From contig JADFMD010000008.1 of assembly GCA_022564055.1 (NCBI GenBank), positions 1-57,527 on the forward strand: a stretch of DNA of 57,527 bases, written 5' to 3'. The position numbers and the translations under genes were made by a program. This document shows, piece by piece, positions 45,666 to 52,471 of this stretch (its first letter is position 1; every line of letters starts with the position of its first letter). Under the pieces are notes generated by a model. That model was not told the DNA's origin and did no database searches. It saw only the letters and a list, made by a program, of their open reading frames with translations. Source of the stretch: Gemmatimonadota bacterium. Lineage in GTDB: Bacteria; Gemmatimonadota; Gemmatimonadetes; Longimicrobiales; Gaopeijiaceae.

Positions 45666-46514
45666 CTACGGCAAAGCAGCCGCGATCTCATCGTAGAAGC
45701 CAGGAATGCTTCTCTGCATGAAAAGGCCGTTCTCCGCCATCGTCCAGCTGAGTTCTTCGGTCTTTATGCGAGACGATGCCTCGCTCTTGGGCACTCCCGA
45801 CCTGATCAGATCCGCCATGCGGGCTCGAACCGCCTCCATCTGATTACGAAAATTCACCACATCATCGCGACTCATGATCGCACCGTGCCCCGGAATGGCG
45901 GTGTCGAAATCCAGGGCAAGAATGTTGTTGATGGTAGAGACCCAACCGCTGCTGCTGCCGCCATTGCCGTAGTCGATAAATGGCGCGATCCCATGAAGCA
46001 AATCGCCCCCGTGGACGGTACGCAGATCGGGAAAATAGATCACCGCATCACCGTTCGTGTGTCCACGGCCCATGTAGAAGGCTCGTACCTCAACGCCACC
46101 GAGATAAACCGCGGTCTGATCGGTAAAAACCAATCTCGGCGGTGCATCCTGGTTCCCTCTCACCATGTTGTCTCTGGCGTTCTGGTGCGCGATGATCTCC
46201 GCGATGTTGATGTACTCCACGTTGCCACCGGCGTGGTCGCCATGATGATGCGTGTTGAGGACGTATCTGACCGGCTGATCGCTTACCTGGGCCACCAGCT
46301 CCTGAATCTCGGCAAAGTTTCGCGGGAATTTGTCGTCGATCAGGATCACTCCTTCGGAGGTAACACGGACACCGACGTTTCCACCGCTGCCGATGATGAC
46401 ATAGAGGCCATCCTTGACCTGTTCAATGGACAGGCTGTTCTGCGCGTGCGCGCCAGTGAGCGTAGCTGCAACAAGGACGCTGCCCAGAAATATTCCTCGT
46501 ACCAAGTTGATCAT
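45666..46514 (-). CDS. Exported MBL-fold metallo-hydrolase
   Basis: Metallo-beta-lactamase-fold protein of 282 residues with a signal peptide (LVRGIFLGSVLVAATLTGAHAQ) from the Met at 46514, which has AGGAGG 4 bases upstream. The metal site is NTHHHGDHAGG (HxHxDH), with further ligands in MGRGHTNGDAVIYFPD and IPGHGAIMSRDD. This arrangement is like the quinoprotein relay and class B lactamase-like families of unknown substrate. A long C-terminal helical segment follows (about 205-282). Divergent from another MBL gene at 46753 across 238 bp that holds a small inverted repeat. No sign that it degrades beta-lactams specifically. Confidence 0.88.
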   Translation of the reverse strand: MINLVRGIFLGSVLVAATLTGAHAQNSLSIEQVKDGLYVIIGSGGNVGVRVTSEGVILIDDKFPRNFAEIQELVAQVSDQPVRYVLNTHHHGDHAGGNVEYINIAEIIAHQNARDNMVRGNQDAPPRLVFTDQTAVYLGGVEVRAFYMGRGHTNGDAVIYFPDLRTVHGGDLLHGIAPFIDYGNGGSSSGWVSTINNILALDFDTAIPGHGAIMSRDDVVNFRNQMEAVRARMADLIRSGVPKSEASSRIKTEELSWTMAENGLFMQRSIPGFYDEIAAALP

Positions 46515-46638
46515 GAGTCCTCCTGCCGGCGTCTTATCGCCGCGGTAGGTGCATGGGTTCGGCACGGAACCCCTTGCTTGACCTAAACACACGAATGCGA
46601 GAAATAACTGAGCCTGATCCGAATCGCGAGGAGCCGTC

Positions 46639-46656
46639 CTGAAGCTTACCCTTCAG
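46639..46656. repeat. Inverted repeat between two MBL genes
   Basis: CTGAAG (46639-46644) and CTTCAG (46651-46656) form a 6-bp inverted repeat with a 6-base gap in the 238-bp divergent region between the two metallo-hydrolase genes. It could be an operator or a weak hairpin; nothing else recognisable is in this stretch. Confidence 0.3.
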
Positions 46657-46752
46657 CTCAGTGGCGGCTCGCGCTCGCACGTGACATTTTGGGTGCCATC
46701 AACTGACGTCGGTCGTGCCGGAAGGCTGCCGAAGAAAGGGGAGCATCGTCCA

Positions 46753-47883
46753 ATGCTGAACCGCAAATCGCGCGCCCGTTCAGAGTTTTTTCCTGCGGTC
46801 TTGCTTACGCTTCTTTTGGCTGTCCCGCTGGCCACCGCGCAGGCGCAGACGCAGGAAACTCTCGAGATATACCTGATCGACGTCGAAGGTGGGGGCGCGA
46901 CCTTGTTCGTCTCGCCAGCCGGGGGGACCCTGCTGATCGATACTGGAAACGGTGGACAGAACGCGGCTCGAGATACCCGTCGCATTCGGGACGCGATGGA
47001 CGACGCAGGCGTCGCTGACATCGACCACCTGATCACCACGCACTGGCACGGCGACCACTACGGAGCGATGCAGGAGCTGGCGAGCCAGGTTCCCGTACGA
47101 CACTTCATCGACCACGGCCCGAGCGTCGAGTCGAACGAAAGGGTGGCCGAGTTTCTCAACACCACGTATCGGGCTTTGTACGAAGGTGCGGAGCACACGG
47201 TCGTCACGCCCGGGGATCGGATTTCCCTCGCCGGGATCGACATCACCGTAGTTGCCTCCGCGAAGCGGGTCATCGACCGGCCGCTACCGGGTCGCGGCGG
47301 ACCGAATCCCTACTGTGCCGATTTCGTCTCGCAGGCCGAAGACAACGGCGAAAACGCGCAGTCGGTGGGCATTCTCGTCCGGTTCGGCGAGTTCCGTGTC
47401 CTCCATCTGGGCGACTTGACGGTCAACACCGAGTTCGAGCTCATGTGCCCGAACAATCCGTTTGGTACGGTCGACCTCTTCGTCGTCTCCCACCATGGAC
47501 AGCCGATCTCCAACGCGAAGGTCCTCGTCCACGCCATCGAGGCCCGTGTGGCCATCCTGAACAACGGCACGCGAAAAGGTGGGCAGCCGGAGGCGATGCG
47601 AGTCCTTTACTCCGCTCCCGGCCTCGAAGACCTCTGGCAGCTTCACTTCTCCCAACTGAGCGGCCAGGAATACACGGTGCCCGGTCTGTTCATCGCGAAC
47701 CCGGTCGATGACGTACAAGAGGTCATGCCCATTGCGCCGCTGACTGGGCCGAGCCGTGGGGCCGGAGCCCCTCCCCGGCCGGTGCACAACGGTGACGCGC
47801 ACTGGATCAAGGTGTCAGGGCACGGCGATGGCTCATTCACGGTTACGAATAGTCGGAATGGGTTCACGAAGGAGTATCGGTAG
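46753..47883 (+). CDS. Exported MBL-fold metallo-hydrolase, ComEC-type
   Basis: Metallo-beta-lactamase-fold protein of 376 residues, exported by a signal peptide (LLTLLLAVPLATAQA) from the Met at 46753 (a GTG at 46681 is in frame but lacks a signal context). The fold resembles the ComEC/Rec2 competence-type domain: IYLIDVEGGGATLFVSPAGG, then ITTHWHGDHYGAM (HxHxDH), LHLGDLTVNTEFEL and VSHHGQPISNAKVLVHAIEA. These families often act on nucleic acid or phosphodiester bonds, though many are uncharacterised. The gene ends 1 base before the convergent MarR gene stop codon, so transcripts would face each other. Confidence 0.88.
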   Translation: MLNRKSRARSEFFPAVLLTLLLAVPLATAQAQTQETLEIYLIDVEGGGATLFVSPAGGTLLIDTGNGGQNAARDTRRIRDAMDDAGVADIDHLITTHWHGDHYGAMQELASQVPVRHFIDHGPSVESNERVAEFLNTTYRALYEGAEHTVVTPGDRISLAGIDITVVASAKRVIDRPLPGRGGPNPYCADFVSQAEDNGENAQSVGILVRFGEFRVLHLGDLTVNTEFELMCPNNPFGTVDLFVVSHHGQPISNAKVLVHAIEARVAILNNGTRKGGQPEAMRVLYSAPGLEDLWQLHFSQLSGQEYTVPGLFIANPVDDVQEVMPIAPLTGPSRGAGAPPRPVHNGDAHWIKVSGHGDGSFTVTNSRNGFTKEYR

Positions 47884-47884
47884 C

Positions 47885-48436
47885 TCAGTCTCCTTCCGGT
47901 TGATGGCCCGTGAGAGTCCGACCCGCTGACGTAGGCGGGACCGCACGGCCCTGACGCGACTCCGCCGGTCCGGTGACCTCGAGCCGATCGCGCAGAATCT
48001 CCAGGATCTCGGTGAGGCGGCTGGCATCTTCATTGGAAAGAGCCGCCTGCATTCGGGCGTCCATCTCTTGGATTGGCCCGTCCATCTCTTTGAGAAGGTC
48101 GAGACCTGCCCGGGTGATCCGCACACACACCATCCGCCGATTGGTCGGGTTGGGGCGCCGGCTGAGGAGGCCACGCTTCCGGAGCTTTTCAACCAGGCGT
48201 GTCGTGTTGGCCGTCCGGTTCAGCATCCGTTGCTGAACGTCGCCTAGACAGTACGTACCCTCCCGATTGCCGCGCAGGATCCGGAGAATGTTGTACTGCT
48301 CGTGAGAGATTCCGAATGCGTTCAACTCCCCTTGCACGATCCGCAGCAGCCAATTGCTTGTGAAGTGCAGGTTGAGGACCGCCTCGGTGTGAACGCTCCT
48401 GAACGTGGATTGCTGGATTTCTTCAGATAGTTTCAC
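47885..48436 (-). CDS. MarR-family transcriptional regulator
   Basis: Winged-helix repressor of about 183 residues from a GTG at 48436. The start was chosen because the N-terminus MKLSEEIQQSTFRSVHTEAV is family-typical; the frame is open 29 codons further upstream to an ATG at 48523 without such character. The winged-helix core is FGISHEQYNILRILRGNREG through CLGDVQQRML, NRTANTTRLVEKLRKRGLL, and the wing NPTNRRMVCVRITRAG. A C-terminal dimer helix (MDARMQAALSNEDASRLTEI) and a disordered tail follow. Divergent from the NmrA-like gene; a palindromic operator lies between them. MarR proteins usually repress themselves and a neighbour and lose DNA binding on ligand or oxidant; the ligand here is unknown. 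Confidence 0.92.
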   Translation of the reverse strand: MKLSEEIQQSTFRSVHTEAVLNLHFTSNWLLRIVQGELNAFGISHEQYNILRILRGNREGTYCLGDVQQRMLNRTANTTRLVEKLRKRGLLSRRPNPTNRRMVCVRITRAGLDLLKEMDGPIQEMDARMQAALSNEDASRLTEILEILRDRLEVTGPAESRQGRAVPPTSAGRTLTGHQPEGD

Positions 48437-48527
48437 GGGTGCTCTTGTCCCTCGGCCTAGGGTTTTGATCTGATCGAGACTCCGGCGTCCACCCGAAAGG
48501 TCCCTGAAAGGAACCCCTCTCAATCTC

Positions 48528-48557
48528 TTGACACGAGAACAGATACCGTTAATCTTG
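48528..48557 (+). promoter_or_regulatory. Promoter of the NmrA-family gene
   Basis: TTGACA (48528-48533) is a perfect -35, and TAATCT (48550-48555) is a fair -10 with a 16-base spacer. The same bases also fit the Bacteroidota layout: TTG (48528-48530), 19 bases, then TAATCTTG (48550-48557) against TAnnTTTG. Transcription would start near 48562, inside the palindromes. Reading both ways is inference. Confidence 0.55.
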
Positions 48558-48559
48558 TG

Positions 48560-48581
48560 TATTCAACATTTGAATATTCAA
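48560..48581. promoter_or_regulatory. MarR operator with three alternating half-sites
   Basis: TATTCAA (48560-48566), a 3-base gap (CAT), then TTGAATA (48570-48576) form a 17-bp inverted repeat. The second half is shared with a perfect 12-bp palindrome TTGAATATTCAA (48570-48581). Three half-sites therefore alternate, overlapping the likely start of transcription of the NmrA-like gene and 124-145 bases from the MarR start. Strong operator candidate. Confidence 0.7.
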
Positions 48582-48639
48582 TAATTAGGTCGCTACGTCA
48601 AGACGCTCGGGCGGGCGACCGAAGTCAAGGAGAGGTACG

Positions 48640-49533
48640 ATGTCGAACTCAAAGCTGGTCCTCGTCACCGGAGTTACAGGGAAGCAGGGCGGTGCCGTCG
48701 CCCGCGCACTGCTTGAGAAGGGCCATCGCGTTCGCGGCCTGACACGAAACGTGGACGGTGCCGCGGCACAGGCCGTGGCGGCACTCGGTGTGGATCTCGT
48801 GACGGGTGACTTCGGGGCTCCGGACTCTCTCTCCACTGCCACCACCGGCGTCGATACGGTGTTCGCCATGAGTACCCCGTTTGAAGCGGGGGAGGCGGCC
48901 GAGGTCGCTCAGGGAAAGGCGATCGTGGATGCGGCCGTCGCGGCTGGGGTCGATCACTTCGTGTACACATCCGTCGCCTCGGCCGACAAGAGCACCGGGA
49001 TCCCACATTTCGACAGCAAATGGGAGGTCGAGCAGTACCTCGCCTCGACCGACTTGGACTGGAGTGTGATCGCTCCGGTCTACTTCATGGAGAATCTTTT
49101 CTTTGGGCAGAACCTGGATGCCCTCCAGACTGGCTCATATCCGTTGCCTCTTCCCGCCGATCTTTCCCTGCAGCAGGTGGCCGTGAGCGACATTGGCGCC
49201 TTCGGTGCGCTCGTGGTCGATAGAAAGGACGAATTCGTGAGCCGTCGGGTGGAGATCGCGAGCGACGAGTTGACGTCCGAGCGGACCGCGGTGGTCCTAG
49301 GGCAGCTCCTGGACCGGGCCGTGGAGCACTACGAGGTGCCCATGGACCAGATCCGAGCTTTCAGCGAGGATTTCGCGTTGATGTACGAGTGGTTCATCGA
49401 AACAGGATACTCGGTCGATATCGAGGGCCTCCGAACCGCTTATCCGGAGGTGGGGTGGTGCCGGTTCGCCGACTGGGCCGCCTCGGTCGTTCCATCGGCC
49501 TTGGCCGAGGCGGAACGCTCGGCGGGCGCCTAG
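48640..49533 (+). CDS. NmrA-like NAD(P)-binding protein
   Basis: Rossmann-fold protein of 297 residues of the atypical short-chain dehydrogenase NmrA/HSCARG group, which includes redox-sensing regulators and quinone or aldehyde reductases such as QorB-like proteins. The dinucleotide motif is GVTGKQGG at 11-18, and the NADP-selecting Arg is in LTRNVDG. Later motifs: DTVFAMSTPF, HFVYTSVASADKSTGIPHFDSK and VIAPVYFMENLFF. The catalytic Tyr-Lys pair of classical SDRs is absent, as usual for the group. AAGGAGAGG is well placed before the ATG. A divergent MarR gene and its operator make it the probable regulated target, possibly as a response to an electrophile or oxidant (inference). Confidence 0.9.
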   Translation: MSNSKLVLVTGVTGKQGGAVARALLEKGHRVRGLTRNVDGAAAQAVAALGVDLVTGDFGAPDSLSTATTGVDTVFAMSTPFEAGEAAEVAQGKAIVDAAVAAGVDHFVYTSVASADKSTGIPHFDSKWEVEQYLASTDLDWSVIAPVYFMENLFFGQNLDALQTGSYPLPLPADLSLQQVAVSDIGAFGALVVDRKDEFVSRRVEIASDELTSERTAVVLGQLLDRAVEHYEVPMDQIRAFSEDFALMYEWFIETGYSVDIEGLRTAYPEVGWCRFADWAASVVPSALAEAERSAGA

Positions 49534-49648: not shown

Positions 49649-52471
49649 ATGGATCGGAAGTGGGTGTATCTTTTCGACGAGCTCAAAGCTGCGGAAGCCG
49701 CGGCGGGTGATTGGGAGGCGGTCCGGGGGCTTCTTGGTGGGAAGGGCGCGAATCTAGCGGAAATGGCGCGGATTCAGGTCCCCGTGCCCTCCGGCTTCAC
49801 GGTGACAACCGAGGCGTGCATCGCCTACCTAGCGGTTCAGGGCAGTTTTCCCGCGGACATCTGGCAACAAGAGATCGAGGCCCTGAGCCGGATCGAGGCC
49901 GAAACGGGCAAGGAGTTCGGGAATCCCGAAAAGCCCTTGCTGGTTTCGTGCCGATCGGGGGCGAAATTCTCGATGCCCGGGATGATGGACACCATCCTGA
50001 ACCTGGGCTTGAACGACCAGGTGGCCGAAGGGATGGTGGAGCTCACGGGTGACGCGCGCTTCGTGTACGACTCCTATCGACGGTTGATTCAGATGTTCGG
50101 GACCGTGGTTCGGGGGATGGAAGACGAGGTTTTCCAAGCGGTCATCGAACAGAGTCGATTGGCTGCCGGGGTCGTCTCGGATACAGAGCTTGGAGCGGAT
50201 GATTGGATGGCCCTCACGCAGCGCTTCAAGGAGCTCGTCCGGACACACACCCGGGCCCCCTTCCCGCAAGATCCTTTGGAACAATTGCAGGCGGCCACGG
50301 AGGCCGTGTTCGATTCCTGGAATACGAAACGCGCCGTCGACTACCGAAACGCATCGGGAATTCCGCACGACCTCGGTACGGCGGTGAACATCCAGACGAT
50401 GGTCTTCGGGAATATGGGCGAGTCGTCCGGGACGGGAGTCGTGATGTCCCGCAACCCGTCCACCGGAGAGCCGGGGCTGCACGGGGACTTCTTGGTGAAC
50501 GCCCAAGGAGAGGACGTGGTGGATGGAACCCGGAAGACCCTCGACATCAGCGTGATGGCGAAACTGTTCCCGGGGCCCCACAAGCAGCTCCGTGAGATCG
50601 CGGATACGCTCGAGCACCACTACCGAAATATGCAGGACCTCGAGTTCACGGTCGAAAACGGAACCCTGTGGCTCCTCCAGACGCGAAACGGTAAACGCAC
50701 CGCTCAGGCGGAGGTGCGGATCGCCGTGGACATGGTTGAGGAGAAGCTCCTTGGCCGAGAGGAGGCCGTGCTCCGGGTGAGCCCCGAGCAGGTGGATTTC
50801 TATCTACATCCTCAGTTCGACGAGGAGGCCAGAGCCAAGGCACAGGTGTTCGCGAAGGGTCTTAACGTATCGCCTGGAGCGGCTGTAGGGATCGTCGCAT
50901 TCGATGCGGATACGGCAGAGCGATGGGCCAAGGAGGACGGAAAAGCGGTAATCATGGTGCGGCCCGAGACGAGGCCCGACGACGTTCACGGGATGCTCGC
51001 GGCGGAGGGGATCGTTACCAGCCGGGGGGGACGGACCAGCCACGCGGCATTGGTAGCACGTCAGTTCGGTAAGCCGGCAGTCGTCGGCGTCGAGGACCTC
51101 GATATCGATTTGAACGACCGCGAGGCGCGGGTCGGAGACCTCACGATTCGGGAGGGGGCTGAAATTTCCATCGATGGGGCGCGCGGAGAAGTCTACCTGG
51201 GCGCACTACCGACCGTCGTTCCGGACATCGAGGACCCTTGGCTCACCAAACTGCTGGGTTGGGCGGACGAGTTCCGGACCCTCGAGGTCTGGGCGAATGC
51301 GGACTACCCCGATGATGCTCGCCGCGCCCGCGATTTGGGGGCCCAGGGAATCGGCCTTTGCCGGACTGAGCATATGTTCTTCGAGGAAGATCGCCTCCCT
51401 GTGATGCGGGAGATGATCATGGCCCGAAACCATCTGGAGCGCGAGGACGCCCTCGATCGGCTCCTACCCCTTCAGCGCAGTGATTTCGAGGGGCTCTTCC
51501 GGACCATGGACGGTCTTCCGGTCGTGGTGCGTCTTCTGGACCCCCCGCTTCACGAGTTCCTCCCCGACCATCAGGAGCTCCTGCGCGAGTTGGCGGAGCT
51601 CAAGGTCCGGCTCCAGCACCTGGAAACGCTTCGCGAGATCGACGACACACTCGAGGAGATCCGGGAGAAACAAGATTTCCTCGAGCGGACCGAGGATCTT
51701 CTGGAGGCGAATCCCATGCTGGGCACGCGCGGGGTCCGTCTCGGAATGCTACGCCCGGAAATCACCCGTATGCAGGCTCGTGCCCTCTTTCAGGCCGCGG
51801 CGCGCTGCGTGCGCGATGGGGTCGACGTCAAGCTCGAGGTCATGATCCCCTTGGTGTCACACGTGAACGAGCTCAAGACCCAGCGTCAACTGGTGGAAGC
51901 CGAGGCGCTGAAAGTGATGGAGGAAGAGGAGCAGGAGATACCGTATAAGCTCGGGACGATGATCGAGATCCCGCGGGCGGCCCTCACAGCGGACGAAATT
52001 GCGGCGTCGGCTGATTTCTTCTCGTTCGGAACGAACGATCTGACGCAGACGGTATTCGGGATCTCCCGGGACGACGCTGAATCGGGATTCCTTCTTCATT
52101 ACCTGGAGCAGGGCGTTCTCCCCGATAATCCGTTCGCGACCCTCGACATAGAGGGAGTGGGGAAAATCATGCGGATGGCGGTTGAACTTGGGCGAGGCGT
52201 CCGTCCGGATCTCGAGATCGGGATCTGCGGCGAGCACGGAGGCGATCCCCGTTCGGTGGAATTCTGCCACAACTTGGGCCTGAACTACGTGAGTTGCTCT
52301 CCGTTCCGTGTCCCGGTCGCACGCCTCGCGGCAGCGCAGGCGGCTGTAAAAGAGGCGGGCTGGCATCCGATGCCCGCGGCGCCCAGGGACGAATTCCGGA
52401 AGGAGAGGGTGCCAGGCGCTGCGCCGGCGGCGAAGGAGACTGCTGCCTCCCCTCCGGACGCGGTGGGTTGA
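49649..52471 (+). CDS. ppdK: Pyruvate, phosphate dikinase
   Basis: PPDK of 940 residues, reversibly converting pyruvate, ATP and phosphate to PEP, AMP and pyrophosphate; a gluconeogenic or glycolytic node enzyme. The N-terminal ATP-grasp domain (GGKGANLAEMARIQVPVPSG) is followed by the swivelling phospho-His domain with the catalytic His at residue 465 in GGRTSHAALVARQFGK. The C-terminal PEP/pyruvate TIM barrel ends with GICGEHGGDPRSVEF and NYVSCSPFRVPVARLAAAQA, carrying the catalytic Cys. The enzyme is some 40-60 residues longer than usual because of a Pro/Ala/Lys-rich tail of unknown function. It works with maeB and pckA found 16-20 kb away. Confidence 0.96.
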   Translation: MDRKWVYLFDELKAAEAAAGDWEAVRGLLGGKGANLAEMARIQVPVPSGFTVTTEACIAYLAVQGSFPADIWQQEIEALSRIEAETGKEFGNPEKPLLVSCRSGAKFSMPGMMDTILNLGLNDQVAEGMVELTGDARFVYDSYRRLIQMFGTVVRGMEDEVFQAVIEQSRLAAGVVSDTELGADDWMALTQRFKELVRTHTRAPFPQDPLEQLQAATEAVFDSWNTKRAVDYRNASGIPHDLGTAVNIQTMVFGNMGESSGTGVVMSRNPSTGEPGLHGDFLVNAQGEDVVDGTRKTLDISVMAKLFPGPHKQLREIADTLEHHYRNMQDLEFTVENGTLWLLQTRNGKRTAQAEVRIAVDMVEEKLLGREEAVLRVSPEQVDFYLHPQFDEEARAKAQVFAKGLNVSPGAAVGIVAFDADTAERWAKEDGKAVIMVRPETRPDDVHGMLAAEGIVTSRGGRTSHAALVARQFGKPAVVGVEDLDIDLNDREARVGDLTIREGAEISIDGARGEVYLGALPTVVPDIEDPWLTKLLGWADEFRTLEVWANADYPDDARRARDLGAQGIGLCRTEHMFFEEDRLPVMREMIMARNHLEREDALDRLLPLQRSDFEGLFRTMDGLPVVVRLLDPPLHEFLPDHQELLRELAELKVRLQHLETLREIDDTLEEIREKQDFLERTEDLLEANPMLGTRGVRLGMLRPEITRMQARALFQAAARCVRDGVDVKLEVMIPLVSHVNELKTQRQLVEAEALKVMEEEEQEIPYKLGTMIEIPRAALTADEIAASADFFSFGTNDLTQTVFGISRDDAESGFLLHYLEQGVLPDNPFATLDIEGVGKIMRMAVELGRGVRPDLEIGICGEHGGDPRSVEFCHNLGLNYVSCSPFRVPVARLAAAQAAVKEAGWHPMPAAPRDEFRKERVPGAAPAAKETAASPPDAVG

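Follow-up and report, generated by a model that had tools for sequence, protein, structure and literature searches.

A predicted double MarR operator between divergent marR and nmrA-like genes of a Gemmatimonadota bacterium

Between a marR gene and an nmrA-like gene of a Gemmatimonadota bacterium lies a cluster of repeated half-sites, and the question it raises is how many such half-sites there are and in which register a MarR dimer would read them. The original prediction counted three and placed them in a MarR-type operator over the promoter region of the nmrA-like gene. The stretch of DNA that we analysed (the window, 57,527 nucleotides) makes up contig C77; the draft genome to which it belongs has 3.38 Mb and is 87% complete.

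The gene pair and its intergenic palindromes

The MarR-family regulator gene occupies positions 47885–48436 of the minus strand, with a likely GTG start at 48436–48434, and its product matches PF01047 (E 1.3e-07, 31.8 bits against a cut-off of 24.6). The MarR protein match is whole over 47966–48436, and the N-terminus aligns with those of relatives from the GTG start. The gene of an NmrA-like NAD(P)-binding protein, which is the likely target, lies divergently on the plus strand (48640–49533; PF05368, 2.4e-49, 169 bits against a cut-off of 27), and Pfam thus bore out both of the earlier family assignments. The redox-sensing cysteine of OhrR occupies an N-terminal position; the first 60 residues of the window's MarR, counted from the GTG start, contain no cysteine, and the idea that the system answers to electrophiles or oxidants found no support. 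Elsewhere in the neighbourhood, positions 45666–47883 hold two adjacent metallo-beta-lactamase-domain genes on opposite strands, and a 940-residue frame at 49649–52471 is presumably a pyruvate phosphate dikinase, which it resembles by eye.

Inside the 203-base region between marR and the nmrA-like gene, we identified a 27-bp block, TTGTGTATTCAACATTTGAATATTCAA, at 48555–48581, which is composed of TTGtgtATTCAA, three bases and TTGAATATTCAA. The pieces originally listed were exact: TATTCAA at 48560–48566, CAT at 48567–48569, TTGAATA at 48570–48576 and TTCAA at 48577–48581. Two overlapping palindromes of different spacing do exist, centred at 48568 and 48575.5. The former is the odd-centred, 17-bp TATTCAA-CAT-TTGAATA (48560–48576), which has seven perfect pairs in the window, and the latter is the even-centred 12-bp palindrome TTGAATATTCAA (48570–48581), which is perfect (six of six pairs). 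The earlier count of three half-sites did not hold. TTCAA is the tail of another TATTCAA (48575–48581), and a degenerate fourth half-site that had been missed, TTGTGTA at 48555–48561, pairs with the first TATTCAA as a second, imperfect 12-bp palindrome, TTGTGTATTCAA (48555–48566, four of six pairs). The half-sites therefore number four and form two tandem even-centred palindromes whose midpoints, 48560.5 and 48575.5, are 15 bp apart. A repeat finder reported a 15-base direct repeat (48555–48569 and 48570–48584), which makes this plan of two tandem palindromes visible. The odd-centred palindrome is best read as their junction, made of the right arm of the left site and the left arm of the right site. 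The observation that started this analysis is partly confirmed.

Chance expectation and conservation in a congener

A single palindrome as good as the best one is not rare, as it arose in 110 of 1000 shuffles of positions 48434–48639 (the 203 intergenic bases and the marR start codon). Two good palindrome centres within 10 bp of each other were found in 3 of 1000 such shuffles; this threshold is passed by the odd palindrome (48568), the right even one (48575.5) and a further centre at 48571.5, and the left even palindrome falls below it. The window contains the arrangement TATTCAA-N1..12-TTGAATA a single time and none of 100 shuffles has it, and the tandem pattern TTGN6CAA-N3-TTGN6CAA was likewise absent from 100 shuffled windows. 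Across the draft genome, ATTCAANNNTTGAAT occurs at a single place (backwards control 0), and the right site is the sole perfect copy of TTGAATATTCAA. Allowing up to two mismatches to TTGAATATTCAA gave 23 places (backwards control 3), two of which are the neighbouring palindromes, the left even site among them. At the one-mismatch place (L066), the one whose surroundings were read, nothing links the sequence to the marR/nmrA system. A regulon search with TTGA-N4-TCAA returned eight places in the genome and two for the backwards control. In the available portions of the literature, the exact 12-bp palindrome occurs in work on insertion sites of horizontal gene transfer and on a staphylococcal toxin-antitoxin system.

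The tandem pattern TTGNNTANNCAANNNTTGNNTANNCAA was present in 2 of the 395 genomes of the phylum sample, namely those of the window and of a congener, and in both it lies between marR and nmrA. Since the backwards control of this pattern was found in 4 of the 395 genomes, at one place each, the low count carries no weight by itself, and the argument rests on where the pattern lies.

This congener (G241) keeps both palindromes, as TTGTGTACGCAA CAG TTGAGTATTCAA, and there too they separate divergent marR and nmrA-like genes, whose products are 87% (MarR) and 82% (NmrA-like) identical to those of the window. The alignment is free of gaps from 48527 to the nmrA start, and both -35-like hexamers stand at the same distances. 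Along it, the two sequences agree at 7 of 7 positions in CTTGACA (48527–48533), 9 of 20 in the spacer that follows, 27 of 31 in the operator block (48554–48584), 6 of 11 between this block and CGTCAAG, 7 of 7 in CGTCAAG itself (48596–48602), 7 of 21 in the stretch after it, and 16 of 19 in the Shine-Dalgarno sequence and nmrA start. When the columns corresponding to 48534–48623 were shuffled, a 31-column block with at least 27 identities appeared in 57 of 10000 cases. The marR leader of the window (48437–48554) is about 50 bp longer than that of the congener, and the nmrA side is without indel.

From the window to the congener, the symmetry of the left site changes from four to five of six pairs and that of the right site from six to five, and together the even sites hold 10 of 12 pairs in both species. 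Over 27 bp, the odd palindrome has 10 of 13 pairs in both species, one of them changed in compensatory fashion from T-A to C-G. Because both registers keep their symmetry in both species, the comparison of window and congener alone cannot separate them. Four genomes of the genus were compared; G378 gave only a partial MarR match (50%) and G265 no match. The operator reading depended on conservation in relatives, and the block is indeed kept, in one congener.

Register of the sites upstream of marR homologues

A wider view of the register came from 111 regions upstream of marR homologues, 109 of them from the phylum (window and congener included) and two from Bacteroidota, with the strand taken from tblastn. 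TTGA-N4-TCAA was identified in 11 of these regions, again including window and congener, and the maximum in 100 shuffled sets was 2; the expectation of 0.2 underestimates chance where the first half is concerned, as many homologue sites begin with TTGACA, which may also serve as a -35 element and is unmodelled in the shuffles. At every other gap from 0 to 12, TTGA and TCAA were found together in at most 2 of the 111 regions, and this sharp peak at gap 4 is independent of the overlap with TTGACA or a -35 element. The inverse order, TCAA-N3-TTGA, was found in a single region, that of the window (shuffle maximum 3). The other 100 homologue upstream regions lack TTGA-N4-TCAA. The nine further loci that carry it (L016, L088, L090, L099, L101, L111, L118, L130 and L150) belong to Gemmatimonadota, encode MarRs 34–39% identical to that of the window and have one such site each. 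They thus share the TTGA-N4-TCAA format with the window, but differ in the number of sites and in the recognition helix, which in the window MarR is LNRTANTTRLVEKL (a comparison that leaves out the wrong-frame rows L006, L013, L015, L021 and L026).

Shorter motifs gave a more mixed picture. TTG-N6-CAA was present in 21 of the 111 regions (3.9 expected, maximum 11), and TTG-N1-CAA in 25, mostly as TTGACAA resembling a -35 element. CAA-N3-TTG was mildly in excess (9 of 111, 4.0 expected, shuffle maximum 9; window and congener among them), as was CAA-N6-TTG at 12 of 111 (4.0 expected, maximum 9), and these two excesses count against the even-register reading. Palindromes of 18 bp with at least eight of nine pairs within 90 bp of marR were even-centred in 11 of the 111 regions and odd-centred in 2, where chance would give about 1.2 of either kind; this count does not take in the window and the congener, whose sites are more distant from marR. 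Examples of such near-perfect palindromes include TACTTGACATGTCAACTA and TAGGTGTTATAACACCTA; the even palindrome of L101 is a GC-rich stretch and may be due to chance. Among seven oriented upstream stretches of distant relatives inspected by eye (L004, L033, L034 and L153–L156), three have clear even palindromes, for instance TAGTTTACGCGTAAACTA in L154 and TTGTTTAAACAA in L034, and no palindrome was seen by eye in the other four. Taken together, the homologue upstream sequences appear to favour the even-centred register.

Further Gemmatimonadota loci, among them L072, L013, L135, L141, L018 and L020, present a second class of putative marR operator. Its 18-bp palindromes are exemplified by TAGGTGTTATAACACCTA and TAGTCGTTATCACGACTA, and several directly follow a TTGACAA -35-like element.

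The NmrA-like protein offered a further point of entry, for which we took its best 30 matches (window and congener included). A marR gene lies within the fetched flank at four of these loci, which are the window, the congener, L046 and L054, and among these best 30 the divergent pair recurs beyond the window in the congener only. At L046 and L054, marR precedes nmrA on the same strand, separated from it by another frame, and perfect 18-bp even palindromes (TACTCCTCGCGAGGAGTA and TAGTTAGAATTCTAACTA, respectively) stand directly ahead of the marR start or across it. The association of MarR with NmrA thus recurs with the same symmetry in other sequence. A look for the same site beside other MarR/NmrA pairs had been proposed; the congener has it, and at L046 and L054 the tandem site was not seen. 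Upstream of nmrA-like genes, TTGN6CAA was found at 0 of the 28 other loci among the best 30 matches, where the upstream stretches of L050 and L056 are shorter than 300 bp and that of L059 is no genuine upstream sequence, its match beginning only at residue 114.

The surroundings of these loci have features of their own. In L046 (1–1600, G126), a small frame separates the MarR-family and NmrA-like genes and TACTCCTCGCGAGGAGTA precedes marR. In L054 (1–1100, G025), the perfect TAGTTAGAATTCTAACTA extends over the marR start, and the similar TAGTTAGATTTCTAATT precedes the frame between marR and the NmrA-like gene, which we take to be DoxX-like, with all three in one direction. On the 3' side of marR in L010, a TTGA-N4-TCAA site, TATTGACTAGTCAATA, stands before a frame that looks DoxX-like by eye, and does not lie ahead of the marR relative itself; the palindromes at L008, L010 and L014 are similarly not upstream of marR.

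Promoters, alternative readings and a proposed mechanism

The block is flanked and overlapped by promoter-like hexamers. A putative -35 element of the nmrA-like gene, TTGACA, lies at 48528–48533 (plus strand), is unchanged and equally spaced in the congener and is followed after 17 bp by a weak -10 hexamer at 48551–48556 (AATCTT, three of six positions; AACCTT in the congener, two of six). A promoter scan of 48430–48660 did not call a promoter for nmrA. The predicted marR promoter is the only promoter-like site that was found in this stretch (0.2 expected), with a putative -35 element, TTGACG, at 48596–48601 (minus strand), part of the conserved CGTCAAG, and a putative -10 element, AATATT, at 48573–48578 (minus strand), inside the right palindrome (AATACT in the congener). 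If both spacers are 17 bp, transcription is predicted to start near 48563 for nmrA (plus strand) and near 48566 for marR (minus strand).

This architecture resembles that of a characterised MarR-family system. According to the accessible parts of the report on SCO3205 from Streptomyces coelicolor (PMC3737563), two operators, O3204 and O3205, lie between the divergent genes sco3204 and sco3205 and were footprinted to 24 bp each, with KD values of 1.3 and 2.4 nM. Their consensus, TTnAAnnnTCAA, has symmetry-equivalent positions 7/16 and 9/14 and is therefore even-centred, and in the DNA-bound crystal structure the recognition helices reach into successive major grooves (PMC3737563). The right palindrome TTGAATATTCAA fits this consensus exactly on both strands, and the left site does not fit it. 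Both systems thus have a MarR-family regulator and two even-centred sites, predicted ones in our case, facing a divergent gene. As far as the same source extends, they differ in that the SCO3205 sites stand apart, without overlap, within 119 nt of intergenic DNA, whereas the centres here are 15 bp apart, and in that the SCO3205 partner resembles an extradiol dioxygenase rather than an NmrA-like protein; the likeness drawn here is one of operators.

PecS of Agrobacterium fabrum and Vibrio vulnificus is comparable in being divergent from its target and in having several intergenic palindromes. The sections available describe binding to several of them, two of which overlap in the A. fabrum pecM promoter, and two V. 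vulnificus palindromes whose centres are 57 bp apart, with binding predicted on opposite faces (PMC6391409, PMC12288460). PecS differs from the present case, as seen in these sections, in its efflux-pump target, in the 57-bp distance of the V. vulnificus sites and in sequence. MarR-family genes are described there as frequently divergent from their targets (PMC6391409), and PMC5487221 depicts this layout as well. Our literature search returned no paper that joins MarR, NmrA, the divergent arrangement and an operator, and the match for MarR family and NmrA was, judged by its title, unrelated.

Could the odd-centred palindrome itself be the operator? In that case, which we regard as unlikely, the 17-bp palindrome within its 27-bp imperfect extension would be the true site, a single central dimer would block both starts and the outer arms would provide wing contacts. 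Odd-centred MarR-family sites exist, including those of OhrR, and the palindrome in question combines seven perfect pairs with the best palindrome score in the intergenic stretch, a symmetry that both species keep through a compensatory change, and a spacing (CAA-N3-TTG) in mild excess upstream of homologues. Its fuller order TCAA-N3-TTGA is nevertheless confined to the window among the 111 homologue regions, odd-centred near-perfect palindromes are at chance level there, and two adjacent even palindromes of such sequence give rise to an odd one automatically.

The two remaining alternatives concern how many half-sites are read, and by what. The original proposal was of three half-sites, read either by one dimer that settles on one of two registers or by two dimers whose registers overlap at a distance of 7.5 bp. 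Both of its palindromes, at 48568 and 48575.5, are present in the sequence, and overlapping MarR-family sites have been published for A. fabrum PecS (PMC6391409, PMC12288460, as far as these sources were available). We consider it very improbable. TTG is outermost in the half-sites of the even register and innermost in those of the odd register; the half-sites thus point in opposite directions about the dyad in the two registers, and a rigid MarR dimer would be expected to manage just one of them. The congener retains the fourth half-site, and both the homologues and the SCO3205 sites favour the even register. Three half-sites with a choice of register were accordingly replaced by four half-sites, on the basis of the symmetry in the congener and the 111 homologue upstream regions. 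It is also highly unlikely that the repeats bind another regulator or are kept mainly as promoter sequence of both genes. Promoter-like hexamers do accompany the block and the link to MarR is sequence-based, but conservation spans both palindromes beyond the hexamers, and the tandem site adjoins marR in both genomes that have it. The earlier interpretation is thus partly supported: there is support for a putative MarR-type operator in the divergent marR/nmrA promoter region, its palindromes shared with the congener and the TTGACA close by likewise conserved, and none for three half-sites or for a single dimer choosing between registers.

We therefore return to the double operator, which from its sequence we judge to be the probable arrangement: tandem even-centred palindromes for the adjacent MarR, bound by one dimer each, that would repress both face-to-face promoters. 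Each 12-bp palindrome would bind one MarR dimer, with the predicted nmrA promoter approaching from the left (TTGACA at 48528) and that of marR from the right (TTGACG at 48601–48596). The left site would cover the edge of the nmrA -10 element and the start, and the right site the marR -10 element. Bound MarR would in this way shut both genes, marR itself included, until a ligand or stress signal releases it. Centres 15 bp apart correspond to about 1.4 helical turns and would rotate the dimers by about 154 degrees at 10.5 bp per turn, so that both may fit at once.

A bolder version of the double operator, which we put forward as doubtful, is a compact toggle in which two dimers on nearly opposite helix faces each sit over one of two face-to-face promoters with near-coincident starts. 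If this were true, the polymerases would exclude each other, and the relative strengths of the two sites would set which gene is released first. On this evidence, the conserved, probable MarR double operator is an ordinary example of a well-known gene switch, and no general principle is altered. What the comparison of relatives contributes is that half-sites which appeared to offer an alternative register resolve into two tandem sites, and that an uncharacterised MarR/NmrA-like pair of the Gemmatimonadota now has a specific predicted operator.
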